Assembly (NCBI GenBank): GCA_947459075.1
Contig: CANHBJ010000005.1
Location: 1 to 44,447, forward strand
From: Bacteroidota bacterium
Lineage (GTDB): Bacteria; Bacteroidota; Bacteroidia; UKL13-3
DNA: 44,447 bases
Direction: 5' to 3'
The notes under the pieces are model-generated. The model did not search any database, was not told where the DNA came from, and saw only the letters and a list, made by a program, of their open reading frames with translations. The position numbers and the translations under genes were made by a program. Below are positions 676-33,189 of this stretch, piece by piece (the stretch's first letter is position 1; each line of letters starts with the position of its first letter).

Positions 676-853
676 AGCATGTAATTTGATATCAATTTTT
701 ATTCATTTTTAATAAATATATAACTTTTATCATACTTTCTGCACATAGCTAAATCAGAGTAATATAAACGATAAGTAGCTGATAAATAAATTTTTAACAA
801 TAAAAAATCTAGATTTTACAAACATTGTTAACACTTGTTTAATATATAGAGGC

Positions 854-885
854 TTGATTTTTAGATTATTTTATGATTAGCTTTA
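854..885 (+). promoter_or_regulatory. Candidate Bacteroidota promoter for the PhoD-like gene
   Basis: TTG at 854-856 is followed after 21 nt by TAGCTTTA at 878-885, seven of eight matches to the Bacteroidota -7 element TAnnTTTG. The ATG of the next gene is at 907. The last base of the octamer deviates, so this is only a moderate candidate. Confidence 0.4.
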
Positions 886-906: not shown

Positions 907-2250
907 ATGTCTCAATTAATCATAGGTCATGTTTCTGAAAACTCAACAAAAATTTGGGTTAGGGGTGTTGCCAATAATGAAAGTACTGCAACACTTACAG
1001 CACATATTACATTAAAAAGCGACTTCCAAAACATCACGCAAAACCTTACCATTTATAAACACGATAATTTTATAGGGGTATTTGAATTTACCGATTTAAA
1101 CCCTGCCGACAGCGGATTTTTCAGGGTGATGTATATGGTAGAGGTTGTATTTAAAGACATTGCCAGAGTACCCATTGGCGGATATGGAAGAGGTAGTTTT
1201 AATACTGTTCCTAGAGTTAATTATCCAATTAGTTTTTTATTAGGTAGTAATTTTTTAAACCGAAATGAGGATGATGCTAAACGTGTTTTTAAAAACTTGA
1301 GTAACATACGCAAGGTTGATAAGCCCTCTTTTATGATACATGCGGGAAATCAAATATACATTGATGCTCCATCTCAAAAAACACCCATACTAGCCGATTT
1401 ATACAAACGTAGATATAACGAAGCCTGGAAAACGAGAGAAGCAAGTGAGTTTTTGGGTAGAATTGCCAATTATAGCGCAATAAATGACCATGAGCTTTAC
1501 TTTAAATTTGCAAATGATACTGAGTACGATTTTAAACCAGCATCTTATTATTTAATGGAAGCGCTTCCATCCTATCACAGTTACCAACATTTAAAAAATC
1601 CTCATACCTACGGAATAAACAAGCTTTACTACAACTATAATTATGCAGGAAATGCCTTTTTTGTTATGGATGTTAGGACAGAGCGCTACCAATTTGGCAA
1701 ACGACAAATGATTGGTAGTGAGCAAATGGAGGATTTCAAAAGTTGGTTGTTGGATAATAAAGATATACCAAAATTTGTAGTAACTGCTGTGCCTTTTGCT
1801 GCCATAAAGGAAACATATTTTAGTGAGTACTGGAGTTCGGAAACTTACGTAAAACAGAAAGAAGAAATATTGCTTTTTATTAAGGCGAATAGCATAGGAA
1901 AATTGGTATTTTTAACCGGACAAGGTAATGCCTCTTTACATAGCACAATAACAATTAAAAAAGGCAATGAAGAACCGTTAGTTATTCATGAATTAATGTG
2001 TGGAGCACTATCCCATTACGAAGCTGCTATATGTAATTATGACGATTTTGTTTGGCAACAACGCAACAGAATTGCAGATTTAGAATACGAGTTTAAATTA
2101 CAAAGCGGCAACGGTGAGAAGGATCCTTCAGTGATGAGCGTATCGTTTGAAAACGGAATATTAAACTACAAGGCATACTCTACTCGACACATCATGAATG
2201 AGGATGAGGTTCCACCAATTATTTTATCTGGTAGTATTAAACTTAATTAA
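907..2250 (+). CDS. PhoD-like protein with degraded metal-binding site (probable pseudoenzyme)
   Basis: The 447-residue protein has the layout of PhoD-type metallophosphatases: an N-terminal beta domain (IIGHVSENSTKIWVRG, residues 5-20) and a C-terminal phosphatase-like domain. The family motifs can be aligned but key residues are changed. GSC of the iron-ligand motif reads GSN (N115), GD is GN (HAGNQIY, N148), and the late GDVH reads GQGN (339-341). The NDHE motif (193-196) and the DxR of MDVRTER (255-257) are kept. There is no signal peptide, unlike most PhoD proteins, so it is probably cytoplasmic. An intact paralogue lies at 16227-17270. It is likely non-catalytic or uses another chemistry; its role is unknown. 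Its stop codon overlaps the stop of the convergent plug gene by 4 nt. Confidence 0.7.
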   Translation: MSQLIIGHVSENSTKIWVRGVANNESTATLTAHITLKSDFQNITQNLTIYKHDNFIGVFEFTDLNPADSGFFRVMYMVEVVFKDIARVPIGGYGRGSFNTVPRVNYPISFLLGSNFLNRNEDDAKRVFKNLSNIRKVDKPSFMIHAGNQIYIDAPSQKTPILADLYKRRYNEAWKTREASEFLGRIANYSAINDHELYFKFANDTEYDFKPASYYLMEALPSYHSYQHLKNPHTYGINKLYYNYNYAGNAFFVMDVRTERYQFGKRQMIGSEQMEDFKSWLLDNKDIPKFVVTAVPFAAIKETYFSEYWSSETYVKQKEEILLFIKANSIGKLVFLTGQGNASLHSTITIKKGNEEPLVIHELMCGALSHYEAAICNYDDFVWQQRNRIADLEYEFKLQSGNGEKDPSVMSVSFENGILNYKAYSTRHIMNEDEVPPIILSGSIKLN

Positions 2251-16226: not shown

Positions 16227-17270
16227 CTATTTAAAAGTAAGCTGACTTAAGGCCACCTGGTAACAGATGCATCGTTTATTTTCTACATCCCAAATTTCTA
16301 ACTGCAACTGCGGATCATGTAAGGCCCAATTAATGGTTATTAGTCCGAAATGATTTTGCATAACAGGGCCACAAATCCTGTTTTTATTTGGTGTGGCAAA
16401 CTTCCAAGTTGATGATAATCCACTGGCAGTAAGATCGTAAATAGGATATAATCCCGGATAATTAACCTTTGATAATTCGGCATAATGCACATCACCACTA
16501 ATAAATAATACCCCGTTTGCTTTGGTCTTTTTAACCAATTCTAACATACGTTTTTGCTCGTGAGGAAAATTAGCCCAAGACTCGTAACCATTGTACTCAA
16601 TACCAAATTGCGAACCGCCAGCTATAATTCTTACATCAGCAGGCTTAGTTAATTCTTCCTCCAACCACTTCCATTGTGCCTCGCCTAAAAAGGTAGAATC
16701 TGCTGTTGCGTATGGTGCAAAATAATGTCTATGCCTTCCGTTTTTACGGTGCTTCTTTTTTTTATCAAAACGTATTAAATCATCTCTAAAAGTGCGGCAA
16801 TCAAGCAATATAACTTGTATTGTTTTTTCTTCTTTTTGGTAATAATATGAGGTATAAATTCCAGCCCTGTTTCTTCGCTCCGATTCTTTCGGTTCATCAA
16901 AAAAATCGAGCATCACTTCTTTCGATTTTTCTTTTTCTGCGAAGTGTCTACCTGCATCATTTTCGCCATAATCATGATCGTCCCAGGTGGCAATAAGTGG
17001 CACATTGTTTTTAAGATTTTTAAAAGAGGGTTTGTTGCCCATGCGTTTGTAGATTGCAGCAAGGGTATCCATATCATGCGTATCACCATAAACGTTATCG
17101 CCCAAAAACACAAACAAATCAGGCTTGTGTGACACAACCACATTGTAAACAGGCAACTCACTGGCTTGGTTTGCACATGATCCAAACGCAATTTTAGATA
17201 CCGCTTGTTGCGCGAATACCGCTAACCCTAAATTAAAAATAAAAATGGTTACCAATAAAAATCTATACAT
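16227..17270 (-). CDS. PhoD-type alkaline phosphatase/phosphodiesterase, exported
   Basis: The 347-residue protein has a signal peptide (residues 1-20, ending VFAQ) followed directly by the phosphatase domain. Metal-site motifs are intact: FGSCANQ (C32, the iron ligand in PhoD), FLGDNVYGD (D58, Y61), WDDHDYGEND (97-100), LLDCRTFRDD and SGDVHYAEL. It lacks the N-terminal beta domain of the larger PhoD type. It should hydrolyse phosphate mono- or diesters in the periplasm. It lies 38 nt downstream of the TraB/GumN gene on the same strand. A paralogue with a broken metal site is at 907-2250. Confidence 0.92.
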   Translation of the reverse strand: MYRFLLVTIFIFNLGLAVFAQQAVSKIAFGSCANQASELPVYNVVVSHKPDLFVFLGDNVYGDTHDMDTLAAIYKRMGNKPSFKNLKNNVPLIATWDDHDYGENDAGRHFAEKEKSKEVMLDFFDEPKESERRNRAGIYTSYYYQKEEKTIQVILLDCRTFRDDLIRFDKKKKHRKNGRHRHYFAPYATADSTFLGEAQWKWLEEELTKPADVRIIAGGSQFGIEYNGYESWANFPHEQKRMLELVKKTKANGVLFISGDVHYAELSKVNYPGLYPIYDLTASGLSSTWKFATPNKNRICGPVMQNHFGLITINWALHDPQLQLEIWDVENKRCICYQVALSQLTFK

Positions 17271-28782: not shown

Positions 28783-31443
28783 ATGCTAACACGTGTAATT
28801 GTTCTTAATAGTAAGGTATATGGTAAAGCCGAAATAAGGCTTGACGACTGCGATAGCTTACAATTGGTGGGACCAAACAATATTGGTAAAAGTACCCTTA
28901 TTTATGCACTTAACTTTTTGTTTATCATCGATGGACAAAAAATGAGTTTTAGTGGTAACCGTAAGGGCGACAAAGAAACCATTCACCATTATTTCCCAAA
29001 CCACAACCAAAGTTTTATTGTTTTTGAGGTTTTTAAGAAATCTTACTACAGCATTATTGTTAAACGCGATAGCGACAGTAACCTTGAGTACTATAAGTTT
29101 GATAGCGAATATAAAGAGGAATTTTTTGTTGATACCGATAAACGTTTGTTAAAGTTTGAAGAGGTAAAAGAAAAAATTGCGGCCAGTGGTTTACCGCTTG
29201 AGCAATTTAAAGACAAACGTGAGGTGTTTCAGTTTGTTTACCAACGTGGTAAACGTAACAATGGTGTAGTTTGGCTTGATGACAGTGTTCGCAGCGAAGG
29301 AATAAGCAATAACTTTTCGCGTATTTACCGCTACTTAATTAACACCAAATTAATTACCAATAAAAACCTTAAAGAGGCACTTATTGTAGCCGATAACCGC
29401 GAAAACGAAACCTTAAACTTCTCGCAAAAAAATAAAAAAGACATTAACGACTTAAAACGTGTGAACAACGAAATTCGTAACCTTAAATCGGTAAAGAATG
29501 AGTTTGACGAATTCCGCGAATTGGTTAGTCAGTACAATGCCAAAGCACGCATTATTGGCGAGCTGTTTTATGGTTTTGAGAAAAACTATAAACACACCAT
29601 GCCCGAGTTGCAAGTTCAATTGCACGAAAAAGATAAAGCCATTGGCAGGTTAAATACAGAAATGAACGAGGAGTTAATTCCTGCAAAAGCCGATTTAGAC
29701 CGTAAAATTGGTGGTAAAGAAGCTGAGATTAACTCGCGTACACAGCTACTTCACGAAAAAGAAAACGAGATTAAAGAAATTGATGCCTACGAACCAATTA
29801 ATATTTTAAACGAGCAATTGGCCAACTTCGATCAGCAACGTAAAAATATTGAAAGCCGAATAACCATGGCCGAGTTGCAGCGTCTAAACAGCCAGCAAAT
29901 AGAAAATAAAATTGTGCGCATTAACGATCAAATTGCGCGCGTTGAAATGCAGGTTAAAAATTACAGTAACCTACTTATTAATAAAATTTCAGGCTCGGTT
30001 GAAAATCGTAAATTGTTAAATTCCATTTTAAGTGAGCAAGTAAGCAGTTTACCTGGCGACCAAGTGATGAAGCAAATTCACAAAATAAGCCAAACGCTTA
30101 GTGTATTTGATGGGCAGATTGACATTTCTAAAAACATTGTTATCAAAGACTTTAAGAATGTTGATGAATTAAAAGAAGAATTAGCTTCACTAAAAGAAGA
30201 TAAAATACAGCAAGAAAGCTTATTAAAAGTTGTTCAGGATTTAGAAGCATCAAACAACGAGTTACAAAGAATTGGTGCAGAAATTGAAACCATTAAAAAC
30301 AAAATTGTTCGCATAAAAGCTAAACCTACTTTGGTAAAGTCGTTAGAGCGTTTAAAAGCCGATTTGAATGACTTGATGGTAGAAAAGGAGAAATATGAAA
30401 CCGAGCAAAAACAAATTGCTAAAACCATTGCACGTAAAAGTAATGAGTTGCGCGATTTGTTAGATGAAAAGCAAAAACGCCAAGAACGCATCAACAAGCT
30501 GATTGAAATGAAGCATGAAATTGATGAATTAGGCTTGGTTGGCGATGAGTTTGAAACCAACGAAAGCTTGGATCAACTCTACAATAAAATTAAATTAAAC
30601 TGGCAAGACCGCATCACCATCAAATCAAACAAAGACCATTTATTTGAAAAATTGCGCGATAAATTACAAAGCACCTTTGCTGATGAAAACGATTTTATTA
30701 AATACGTAGAAGAAGAAGTTGCTTTAATTGAAGACAAAGAACGTAGTGTTCAGTCTTTGCTTGAAAGTATATCAACCCAATTTGCCAATCCAGCATACAC
30801 TTTACTTAAGCGTTACGAAGAATTTAAGGAGTTTTTATACAATAAATTTAATACCAAACTTTCGCAAACACGTATTTCTGATATCGAATCATTAACCATT
30901 GAGTTAATTGACAACAAGCGATTGGTTGAAGAAGTTCGTAAGATTAGCCAAATTCAACAAATTAGCGGACAACTGATGTTTGAGTTTGATAACAGCGAAA
31001 ACTTAAAGGTGCTTGATCATTACTTAGAAAGCGGACAAAAAATTGAGTTTGATGATTTGTTTGATATTACCTTACACTTAAGCCGTAAAGGAAGCACCAA
31101 ACAAGTAGATTTAAGTCAACAAATTGAAAGTGATGGTACAGATAAAATGATTCGTTTGGTGATTGTAATGAACATCATTAACCGATTAGCTGTTGCCGAT
31201 CATGAAAACCGTATTGCCTTATTTATTGATGAGGTTGCTACCATTGATAAGCAAAATCGTCCGGAGTTAGTGCGTTTCTGTAAAGAGCATTTCTTTATCC
31301 CGATTTTTGCTGCCCCTGATGCTGTGCCGGGCTTTGGTAAATACTATTTCATTTTCCGCAGTTCGGGTAAAATCAATATCAACGAAAAAACCAACGCGGC
31401 TTATGGCGAGGTGGTTGATAAAAGTTTAAAATTAGAGGTGTAA
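28783..31443 (+). CDS. SMC-like ATPase of a condensin-type operon (MksB/JetC-like)
   Basis: The 886-residue protein is an SMC/Rad50-type ATPase. The N-terminal half-ATPase carries Walker A GPNNIGKST (30-38). Long coiled coils occupy about residues 230-400 and 465-690, with only a short non-coil break between (about 400-465), suggesting a MukB-like mini-hinge rather than a full SMC hinge. The C-terminal half has a signature-like segment QIESDGTDKMIRLVI (S783-D784-G785-T786 in place of LSGGQ) and Walker B IALFIDEVATID (D816-E817). It is shorter than typical MukB/MksB. It is followed by kleisin-like and KITE-like genes, so it should form a DNA-entrapping or loop-extruding complex. Whether that acts on the chromosome or against foreign DNA is open. 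Confidence 0.78.
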   Translation: MLTRVIVLNSKVYGKAEIRLDDCDSLQLVGPNNIGKSTLIYALNFLFIIDGQKMSFSGNRKGDKETIHHYFPNHNQSFIVFEVFKKSYYSIIVKRDSDSNLEYYKFDSEYKEEFFVDTDKRLLKFEEVKEKIAASGLPLEQFKDKREVFQFVYQRGKRNNGVVWLDDSVRSEGISNNFSRIYRYLINTKLITNKNLKEALIVADNRENETLNFSQKNKKDINDLKRVNNEIRNLKSVKNEFDEFRELVSQYNAKARIIGELFYGFEKNYKHTMPELQVQLHEKDKAIGRLNTEMNEELIPAKADLDRKIGGKEAEINSRTQLLHEKENEIKEIDAYEPINILNEQLANFDQQRKNIESRITMAELQRLNSQQIENKIVRINDQIARVEMQVKNYSNLLINKISGSVENRKLLNSILSEQVSSLPGDQVMKQIHKISQTLSVFDGQIDISKNIVIKDFKNVDELKEELASLKEDKIQQESLLKVVQDLEASNNELQRIGAEIETIKNKIVRIKAKPTLVKSLERLKADLNDLMVEKEKYETEQKQIAKTIARKSNELRDLLDEKQKRQERINKLIEMKHEIDELGLVGDEFETNESLDQLYNKIKLNWQDRITIKSNKDHLFEKLRDKLQSTFADENDFIKYVEEEVALIEDKERSVQSLLESISTQFANPAYTLLKRYEEFKEFLYNKFNTKLSQTRISDIESLTIELIDNKRLVEEVRKISQIQQISGQLMFEFDNSENLKVLDHYLESGQKIEFDDLFDITLHLSRKGSTKQVDLSQQIESDGTDKMIRLVIVMNIINRLAVADHENRIALFIDEVATIDKQNRPELVRFCKEHFFIPIFAAPDAVPGFGKYYFIFRSSGKININEKTNAAYGEVVDKSLKLEV

Positions 31444-31463
31444 CTGTTATCTAAATTATAAAT

Positions 31464-32660
31464 ATGAGAACAGAACCACGTACCATATTAAATTTCCTCT
31501 CCAATTACTTTGATATCATCAAGGAATTGTTTGACGTGCAGTTGAAAGACGGCCTAGTTAGACGAGAGGATTTGAATGCTATTTTAGCTGAACACGACAG
31601 CGATATTTTAAATAAGCTGATTGAGTATAAATTCTTTAAAAAGATTGGAGACGACTTTGAAATACGCCCCATGTATTTTAAGTTTTTGGAATTTATTTTA
31701 AGTGAGTTTAAACCGCTATTGCCCGAAACCATCGAGAAATATGAACACTCGGTAACATCGTTATTTAAAAAAATTAAAGAGGGCATTAACAAAGACCGTA
31801 ACATTTTATTACAACGTATCAGCGATTTAAATAATGAGGTGCGCGATTTTACAGAAGCTGTAGAGAAAAATACACTTCGTTTAATTGCCGAAACCAAAGA
31901 GTTAAAATCTAACGTAGATAAAATAGATTACCGCGAGAAAGTACGTAAGGCCAGTTTCTGGATTGATTACTACATCACTCCATTAAATACTATTTTAGAT
32001 GTGAGTAATTCAAACTCCATTACCAATAGATTGCTTGATATTTCGCAATACATTAACATACGCAGGTTAAATTTTGATGATGAATTGGCTCGCCAACAAT
32101 TTGAGAAATTGTATACTTTTTTGGTGCAAACCAATGATGATTTACTTCGTCAATCAAAAATACTAACTAACGAATTATTGCCATTGATTGAGCGCATAAG
32201 AAGCGAATCAATGATATTAACAGGTTGGATTGAGTTTTTGAAAAACCCGAACAAAACAGAAACTCCATTTGTACCAAAATCTATTAGGGCTTACCCATAT
32301 AACAATGCCATGTATTTTAACTCGTTAGAGTATGTGCAACAATACATGCAAAATGATGATGTTTATTTGGAAGACCCTAACTTAAGTGCAAGCGATAAAT
32401 GGATTTTTAATAAAGAATTTTACCGCGAACAGTTGATGAAAGAATTACCTATGCCTAACTTTTTTGAGTGGGCAGGTGTTACTTTAAGAAGCGAATACAA
32501 GGATATTGAAACCGAGAAATTTTTCTCCCTCTCTACCCTATTATTTGAAGATGACATTGAATTAGAGTTCGATCCAACTGCCGATAGGCAAGTGATTAGA
32601 ACTTCAGATATGAATTTACGCGTACCAAAAATTAAAATTAAACGACATGGACTTTCCTAG
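31464..32660 (+). CDS. Kleisin-like subunit (MukF/MksF/JetA-like)
   Basis: The family was not recognised directly; the call rests on layout and context. The 398-residue protein starts with a winged-helix-like region (residues 1-85, VRREDLNAILAEHDSDILNKLIEYKFFKKIGDDFEIRP), then a long helical stretch (about 90-165, KKIKEGINKDRNILLQRISDLNNEVRDF), a second mostly helical part to about 260, and a C-terminal region rich in beta and acidic residues. MukF and JetA have N-terminal winged-helix and central helical domains of this kind. It lies 20 nt after the SMC gene and overlaps the next gene by 14 nt, which argues for a stoichiometric complex. The C-terminal segment would be expected to bind the SMC head. 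Confidence 0.55.
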   Translation: MRTEPRTILNFLSNYFDIIKELFDVQLKDGLVRREDLNAILAEHDSDILNKLIEYKFFKKIGDDFEIRPMYFKFLEFILSEFKPLLPETIEKYEHSVTSLFKKIKEGINKDRNILLQRISDLNNEVRDFTEAVEKNTLRLIAETKELKSNVDKIDYREKVRKASFWIDYYITPLNTILDVSNSNSITNRLLDISQYINIRRLNFDDELARQQFEKLYTFLVQTNDDLLRQSKILTNELLPLIERIRSESMILTGWIEFLKNPNKTETPFVPKSIRAYPYNNAMYFNSLEYVQQYMQNDDVYLEDPNLSASDKWIFNKEFYREQLMKELPMPNFFEWAGVTLRSEYKDIETEKFFSLSTLLFEDDIELEFDPTADRQVIRTSDMNLRVPKIKIKRHGLS

Positions 32661-33189
32661 ATATCATAAAGAAATTGTAGGCGATTTATTGGATGGCAAG
32701 TTTGTTTTAGCCACCGATGCCAAGTTTATTGAATTAAAGAATAATGCCGATTTTTATGGCAAGTTTTTTAAAGAAACATTTGATTTCTACCTCGACATTA
32801 AATCGGATTATGCTTATTTAATTAGCGAAGAAACCATGGAAATGTTGAGCCGAGATATTTGTATTTTTATTGGTTTGCTTTGTTACGAGTTAGATAAAGA
32901 AGGTAAAAACTTTTTGGATGAAATACAGTATGCCGAGTTTGATTCCGAGATGATAGATAACTTGTTAGACAACTCATCGTACACCGATTTAATTATGAAC
33001 AACAACCAGCTTAAAAACAGCGAAGCACGCAAGCAATTTTTAGGCACGCTAAATCGCAGAAACATTATAGACCGCAACAGCGACAAAAAGTTTACGTTTA
33101 CACCTGCTTACAAAGTGTTTATGGATTTTGCCAAGAATTTTGCCAAAGGCAAATTGGCTACTAACAGCGTAGAAGAAGATAACGAGTAG
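32647..33189 (+). CDS. KITE-like subunit (MukE/MksE/JetB-like)
   Basis: This 180-residue acidic protein overlaps the kleisin-like gene by 14 nt. It looks like two small winged-helix units: residues 1-75 (YHKEIVGDLLDGKFVLATDAKFIELKNN) and 95-165 (NSEARKQFLGTLNRRNIIDRNSDKKFTFTPAYKVFMDFAK), the second with a strand-turn-strand wing. Size, tandem winged helices and operon position fit MksE/MukE/JetB, which bind the kleisin and DNA. Identity is inferred from context; the sequence alone is not diagnostic. No JetD/MksG-like topoisomerase-primase (Toprim) nuclease gene follows; a strong terminator comes 24 nt later. Confidence 0.52.
   Translation: MDFPRYHKEIVGDLLDGKFVLATDAKFIELKNNADFYGKFFKETFDFYLDIKSDYAYLISEETMEMLSRDICIFIGLLCYELDKEGKNFLDEIQYAEFDSEMIDNLLDNSSYTDLIMNNNQLKNSEARKQFLGTLNRRNIIDRNSDKKFTFTPAYKVFMDFAKNFAKGKLATNSVEEDNE

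Follow-up and report, generated by a model that had tools for sequence, protein, structure and literature searches.

A conserved PhoD-family protein of a Bacteroidota genus with most metal ligands replaced, most likely a cytosolic and non-catalytic pseudophosphatase

The PhoD of Bacillus subtilis holds one Fe3+ and two Ca2+, and the excerpted account in PMC4223295 reports that its activity toward pNPP is abolished by the substitutions C180A, D265A, N271A, N272A and D436A and drastically reduced by D207A and D266A. Partial losses of active residues in the family are already known, as the part of PMC10987575 that deals with soil phage PhoDs gives complete sets for 19 of 23 proteins and partial sets for the remainder. 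The retromer subunit VPS29, in the excerpt of PMC3101248, has a metallophosphatase fold without phosphatase activity and is used as a scaffold; it is eukaryotic, belongs to another branch of the superfamily and keeps weak metal binding. GAP50 was rejected as a pseudo-PAP precedent, since it is called an acid phosphatase in the review PMC8949495. Metallophosphatases that are inactive and retained for a different task are a known kind of protein, as VPS29 in eukaryotes illustrates, and a search of the open-licence literature found no PhoD-family pseudophosphatase.

Here we describe a protein, referred to as pseudo-PhoD, encoded near one end of the window (the whole 44,447-nucleotide stretch of Bacteroidota DNA that was analysed). 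As the first-pass annotation had claimed, its reading frame is long and intact. The protein belongs to PF09423 (PhoD) with an E value of 7e-14 and 52.1 bits against a curated cut-off of 27, while PADLOC and NCBIfam gave no useful match for it. Two further PhoD-family proteins are encoded in the same genome, one at 16227-17270 of the window (minus strand, 347 aa, signal-peptide-like start), which had served as the intact reference, the other on contig C178; the motifs of both are intact and their N-termini signal-like, and pseudo-PhoD shares neither feature. The lack of a signal peptide, also claimed earlier, extends to the seven orthologues with complete N-termini, which begin M[SC]QLIIG[HD]V with the frame closed within about 12 codons upstream and, judged by eye, carry no hydrophobic start that would direct export as in PhoD. 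The gene and its motifs are as follows.

907..2250, plus strand: pseudo-PhoD gene, open from ATG to stop, 447 aa, with a PF09423 match and no signal peptide
907..1206, plus strand: N-terminal beta-strand domain, about residues 1-100, with model strands from 3-9 to 88-99; aligns with the N-terminal domain of the intact relative G024
1243..1251, plus strand: motif I, GSN (113-115); iron ligand Cys180 lost, Asn in 8/8 orthologues
1345..1359, plus strand: motif II, GNQIY (147-151); Asp207 replaced by Asn148, Tyr210 kept as Tyr151
1480..1506, plus strand: motif III, INDHELYFK (192-200); Asp265 replaced by Asn193, Asp266 kept as Asp194, His195 kept, Asn271/Asn272 replaced by Phe199/Lys200
1918..1929, plus strand: motif VI, GQGN (338-341); Asp436 replaced by Gln339, His438 by Asn341

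The ligands were mapped from pseudo-PhoD onto G024 and from there onto the 2yeq alignment of B. subtilis PhoD, in which the chain number is the precursor number minus 56. G024 (L041:7820-9262), from the same bacterial family, is the closest intact relative found (28% identity); it resembles pseudo-PhoD in its similar length and in having no obvious signal peptide, and differs in that its GSC, GDQIY, WDDHEIRND and GDIH motifs are intact. Seven of the nine metal ligands of B. subtilis PhoD are replaced in pseudo-PhoD (Cys180 by Asn115, Asp207 by Asn148, Asp265 by Asn193, Asn271 by Phe199, Asn272 by Lys200, Asp436 by Gln339 and His438 by Asn341), and Tyr210 and Asp266 alone are kept; His267 is kept as well. 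Among the seven residues tested by alanine substitution in B. subtilis six are replaced, though not by Ala. We take Cys180, Asp207, Tyr210, Asp436 and His438 to be the probable full iron-site set, with Tyr210 and His438 presumed to be iron ligands from their motif position and the parallel with purple acid phosphatases in PMC4223295. Even when Asp is accepted in place of Cys180, only the Tyr of this set stands in all eight orthologues, and of the calcium-site residues Asp265, Asp266, Asn271 and Asn272 only Asp266 is kept, the others having become Asn, Phe/Tyr and Lys/Arg. The first-pass annotation had reported GSN, GNQ, NDHE and GQGN, which are indeed present at 113-115, 147-149, 193-196 and 338-341, and was correct that the DH of NDHE (Asp194 and His195) is retained; it listed four of the seven losses and missed Asp265 to Asn193, Asn271 to Phe199 and Asn272 to Lys200. 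As read from the aligned sequences, the loss of metal ligands is confirmed and is greater than had been stated.

The certainty of this mapping differs between motifs. No method used introduces a gap into motif II or into the NDH core of motif III. In motif I the profile HMM places GSN on GSC and MAFFT instead gaps one or three residues at the Cys, so that substitution and short deletion are ambiguous here; either way no Cys or Asp lies nearby, the only cysteines of pseudo-PhoD being 365 and 376. Motif VI aligns ungapped, GQGN on GDxH, by MAFFT and by hhalign (probability 99.3), and His438 stands opposite a gap in the profile-HMM alignment. The assignment of Phe199 and Lys200 rests on the B. 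subtilis-like spacing of G024, because the length of the loop after DHE varies in the family. A search for other acidic, Cys or His residues that might occupy the metal positions gave His345 as the sole candidate, by way of a four-residue gap in one pairwise BLASTP alignment that brings it to or near His438; with His345 so placed, Cys180, Asp207, Asp265 and Asp436 are still lost.

We compared these sites with 68 other PhoDs: 39 encoded on viral contigs, 28 drawn from genomes, plasmids and phage records, and the paralogue within the window itself. Of the 68, 65 are complete and three are fragments without the Asp436/His438 region. Asp207 and Asp265 are kept in 68/68 of these proteins and are both Asn in 8/8 pseudo-PhoD orthologues; Asp436 and His438 are kept in all 65 that reach that far and are Gln and Asn in all eight orthologues. 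Position 200 is Asn or Asp in 64/68 others against Lys or Arg in 8/8 orthologues, although the motif III counts are partly circular because WDDH(D/E) was the motif used to retrieve the 39 viral proteins. The Tyr210 site is Tyr in every protein of both groups. The Cys180 site is variable among the others (Cys 49, Asp 16, Gly 2, gap 1) and its loss is therefore the least telling; L046 and L052, otherwise largely intact PhoDs, have Gly at this Cys/Asp iron-ligand site. Ligand columns are not significantly enriched among the losses (family-conserved columns lost, 4/6 ligand versus 4/10 other, P 0.30; in a second count 4/6 versus 11/20, P 0.49), which means that the clade has diverged at other family-conserved positions too. 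Separately, we observed PhoD domains in 41 viral ORFs (L086, L138, L164 and 38 other viral-contig loci), at least one of them joined to DUF5047 and many longer than 700 aa.

Structure prediction, which had been proposed as a check, gave from 46 aligned sequences a usable model (pLDDT 75.9, pTM 0.84) that keeps the PhoD fold; an earlier model built on six close sequences was set aside for its low quality (pLDDT 36.5). B. subtilis PhoD was the best match in both searches (2yeq_A; Foldseek E 9.7e-23; VIA-align Z 29.2, 402 residues aligned at 3.4 Å), with purple acid phosphatases at Z 22-28 in VIA-align, which places the model in the PhoD/purple acid phosphatase fold. This result confirms the fold rather than discovers it and is not independent of sequence, because the alignment behind the model held 40 PhoD sequences. 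The matches to VPS29 (2a22_B, Foldseek E 6.2e-4) and to the B subunits of eukaryotic DNA polymerases, which we take to be inactive phosphoesterase-like subunits (human polymerase delta chain 6tny_B, Foldseek E 9.3e-5), are weak, and the latter differ in being part of a polymerase. Pseudo-PhoD resembles B. subtilis PhoD in its fold over 402 residues, the N-terminal beta domain, Tyr210, Asp266 and His267, and differs in the seven of nine replaced ligands, the missing signal peptide and the absence of the metal centre that PhoD, in the excerpt of PMC4223295, needs for activity.

Orthologues are present in eight of the nine genomes of the genus, at 97 to 63% identity and none with an internal stop; the ninth (G001) gave no match in an assembly that is only 65% complete. 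The replacements proposed earlier to be conserved in a clade are fixed, N115, N148, N193, Q339 and N341 being invariant in 8/8 orthologues, and the two calcium-Asn sites are Phe/Tyr and then Lys/Arg in all eight. As 150 of 362 columns are invariant, five of five sites gives a nominal P of 0.012, a value that ignores relatedness. Tyr151, Asp194, His195, Glu196 and His345 are likewise invariant in 8/8. Comparison of synonymous and non-synonymous rates revealed purifying selection, with dN/dS of 0.03-0.18 over the 16 of 28 orthologue pairs with computable (unsaturated) dS, several of which have dS above 1.5 and so give rough values. The intact secreted paralogue C178 behaves alike (dN/dS of pseudo-PhoD versus C178: G004 0.085 versus 0.067; G005 0.061 versus 0.065; G006 0.069 versus 0.080; G002 0.031 versus 0.048; G008 0.078 versus 0.080; dN to G007, 0.277 versus 0.306), and selection on pseudo-PhoD is strong and similar to that on the intact secreted PhoD of the same genomes.

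In a tree the eight orthologues group as a single clade (SH-aLRT 100) with a long stem of 2.43, next to three intact proteins, G024, L044 and L055 (support 90), at a point that the tool flags as a meeting of long branches; the nearest relatives outside the genus are intact. No member was found beyond the genus in 64 family, 395 class and 395 phylum genomes: at E <= 1e-10 the family genomes yielded the eight genus proteins and the intact G024, the three matches in the class genomes are all among those nine, and the eight other matches in the phylum genomes at 1e-7 all have intact Asp/DDH/DxH motifs. Phage records held no match to pseudo-PhoD, and plasmid records held six weak matches, with motifs intact in the two inspected.

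Two non-coding blocks precede the gene in an alignment of five upstream regions.

731..746, no strand assigned: conserved non-coding block upstream
852..880, no strand assigned: second conserved non-coding block, directly before the gene, a possible promoter

In G006 (L007:7202-7678) the ABC-HlyD-TolC-Sbt_1 genes are missing and a 5' remnant of the ABC gene lies before pseudo-PhoD. Both blocks and the gene are kept there though these upstream transporter genes are gone, and the neighbours differ in G007 (a divergent Endonuclease_NS gene upstream, a repeat protein downstream) and in G003 (elongation-factor-like and TPR-like neighbours, by eye), which together point to a single-gene unit. No conserved operon partner, and no other partner or ligand, was found across the clade loci. 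The Sbt_1 transporter was rejected as an operon partner, being absent beside the gene in G006. A convergent T9SS plug gene occurs at 6/8 loci, to which we attach no functional link because it lies on the other strand. A role as immunity protein or inhibitor for the neighbouring nuclease was dropped, since the short contig of G003 does not contain this neighbour, and in G004, G002 and G006 other genes intervene. Elsewhere in the window, 28783-33189 encodes an SMC-like ATPase, a 398-aa protein and MksE (PF21980, E 1.3e-20) in what looks like an MksBEF condensin operon, for which PADLOC matched no Wadjet model.

From the ligand loss, its fixation across the clade, the purifying selection and the kept fold, we infer that pseudo-PhoD is a pseudoenzyme with a binding or structural role, as had been suggested. 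There is good support for a conserved PhoD-family pseudophosphatase that is most likely cytosolic and non-catalytic, and we hold it very probable that such a protein has replaced catalysis by non-catalytic binding. Nearly all metal residues are lost, and yet the protein is maintained with the same care as a working enzyme; its probable action is therefore to bind something and not to cut it. In the ancestor of the genus, seven of the nine ligands of the Fe3+ and the two Ca2+ would have disappeared from an unexported PhoD-type enzyme, a loss by which the PhoD reaction should be impossible, and the fold, the gene and a rebuilt pocket would then have been maintained under purifying selection. The pocket sequence has amides at five former ligand sites and Lys or Arg at a former calcium-ligand site. 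Such a pocket could accommodate, in the absence of metal, a ligand that carries phosphate or is otherwise anionic, or it could receive a partner protein. Some Ca2+ may still bind at Asp194, since the oxygens of Asn and Gln are capable of coordinating Ca2+ and two Asn do so in PhoD.

Judged from its residues, binding of an anionic ligand in the pocket is plausible, and a scaffold function is a close alternative. In the narrower form of the same explanation, pseudo-PhoD is purely a protein scaffold and the pocket serves stability only. VPS29 offers the precedent, since PMC3101248 concludes that it is a rigid scaffold independent of metal and that it retains its metal-site residues for stability. 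However, all the substituted pocket residues are invariant in 8/8 orthologues, a degree of conservation that seems excessive for a spent site, and no partner gene was found to adjoin pseudo-PhoD; we consider this form possible but somewhat improbable. More specifically, the amides and Lys/Arg might grip a phosphate-bearing ligand uncut, making the protein a metal-free cytosolic receptor that acts as a phosphate-ester sensor or regulator in the genus, a proposal we put forward tentatively and hold to be rather doubtful.

A low dN/dS is equally compatible with a changed enzyme and with a binding protein, and pseudo-PhoD might have lost PhoD chemistry and gained another activity, metal-free or with different metals, through the conserved Tyr151 and Asp194-His195 and perhaps His345 or Glu196. 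All five of these residues are invariant in the clade, the pocket is conserved above background, and His345 can be put at His438 by BLASTP; but Tyr151, Asp194 and His195 are invariant family-wide (68/68), so that their retention need not mean a new function, and four of the five ligands of the presumed iron-site set are gone with Tyr210 alone kept, which leaves a repurposed enzyme distinctly unlikely. Gene decay or assembly error, either of which could produce ligand losses in a single genome, is extremely improbable given the same residues in eight separate assemblies without internal stop, the low dN/dS where computable and the survival of the gene in G006 despite the missing upstream transporters, in keeping with the earlier judgement that sequencing error is unlikely.

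As a pseudophosphatase that most likely binds, pseudo-PhoD bears on how the family is counted and how it evolves. Counts of PhoD genes often serve as a marker of organic phosphorus use, and a conserved protein that scores against the PhoD profile almost without metal ligands would be wrongly included in them. The clade would also offer a clean natural example of a phosphatase becoming a binding protein, for which the intact paralogue carried by the same genomes serves as control.
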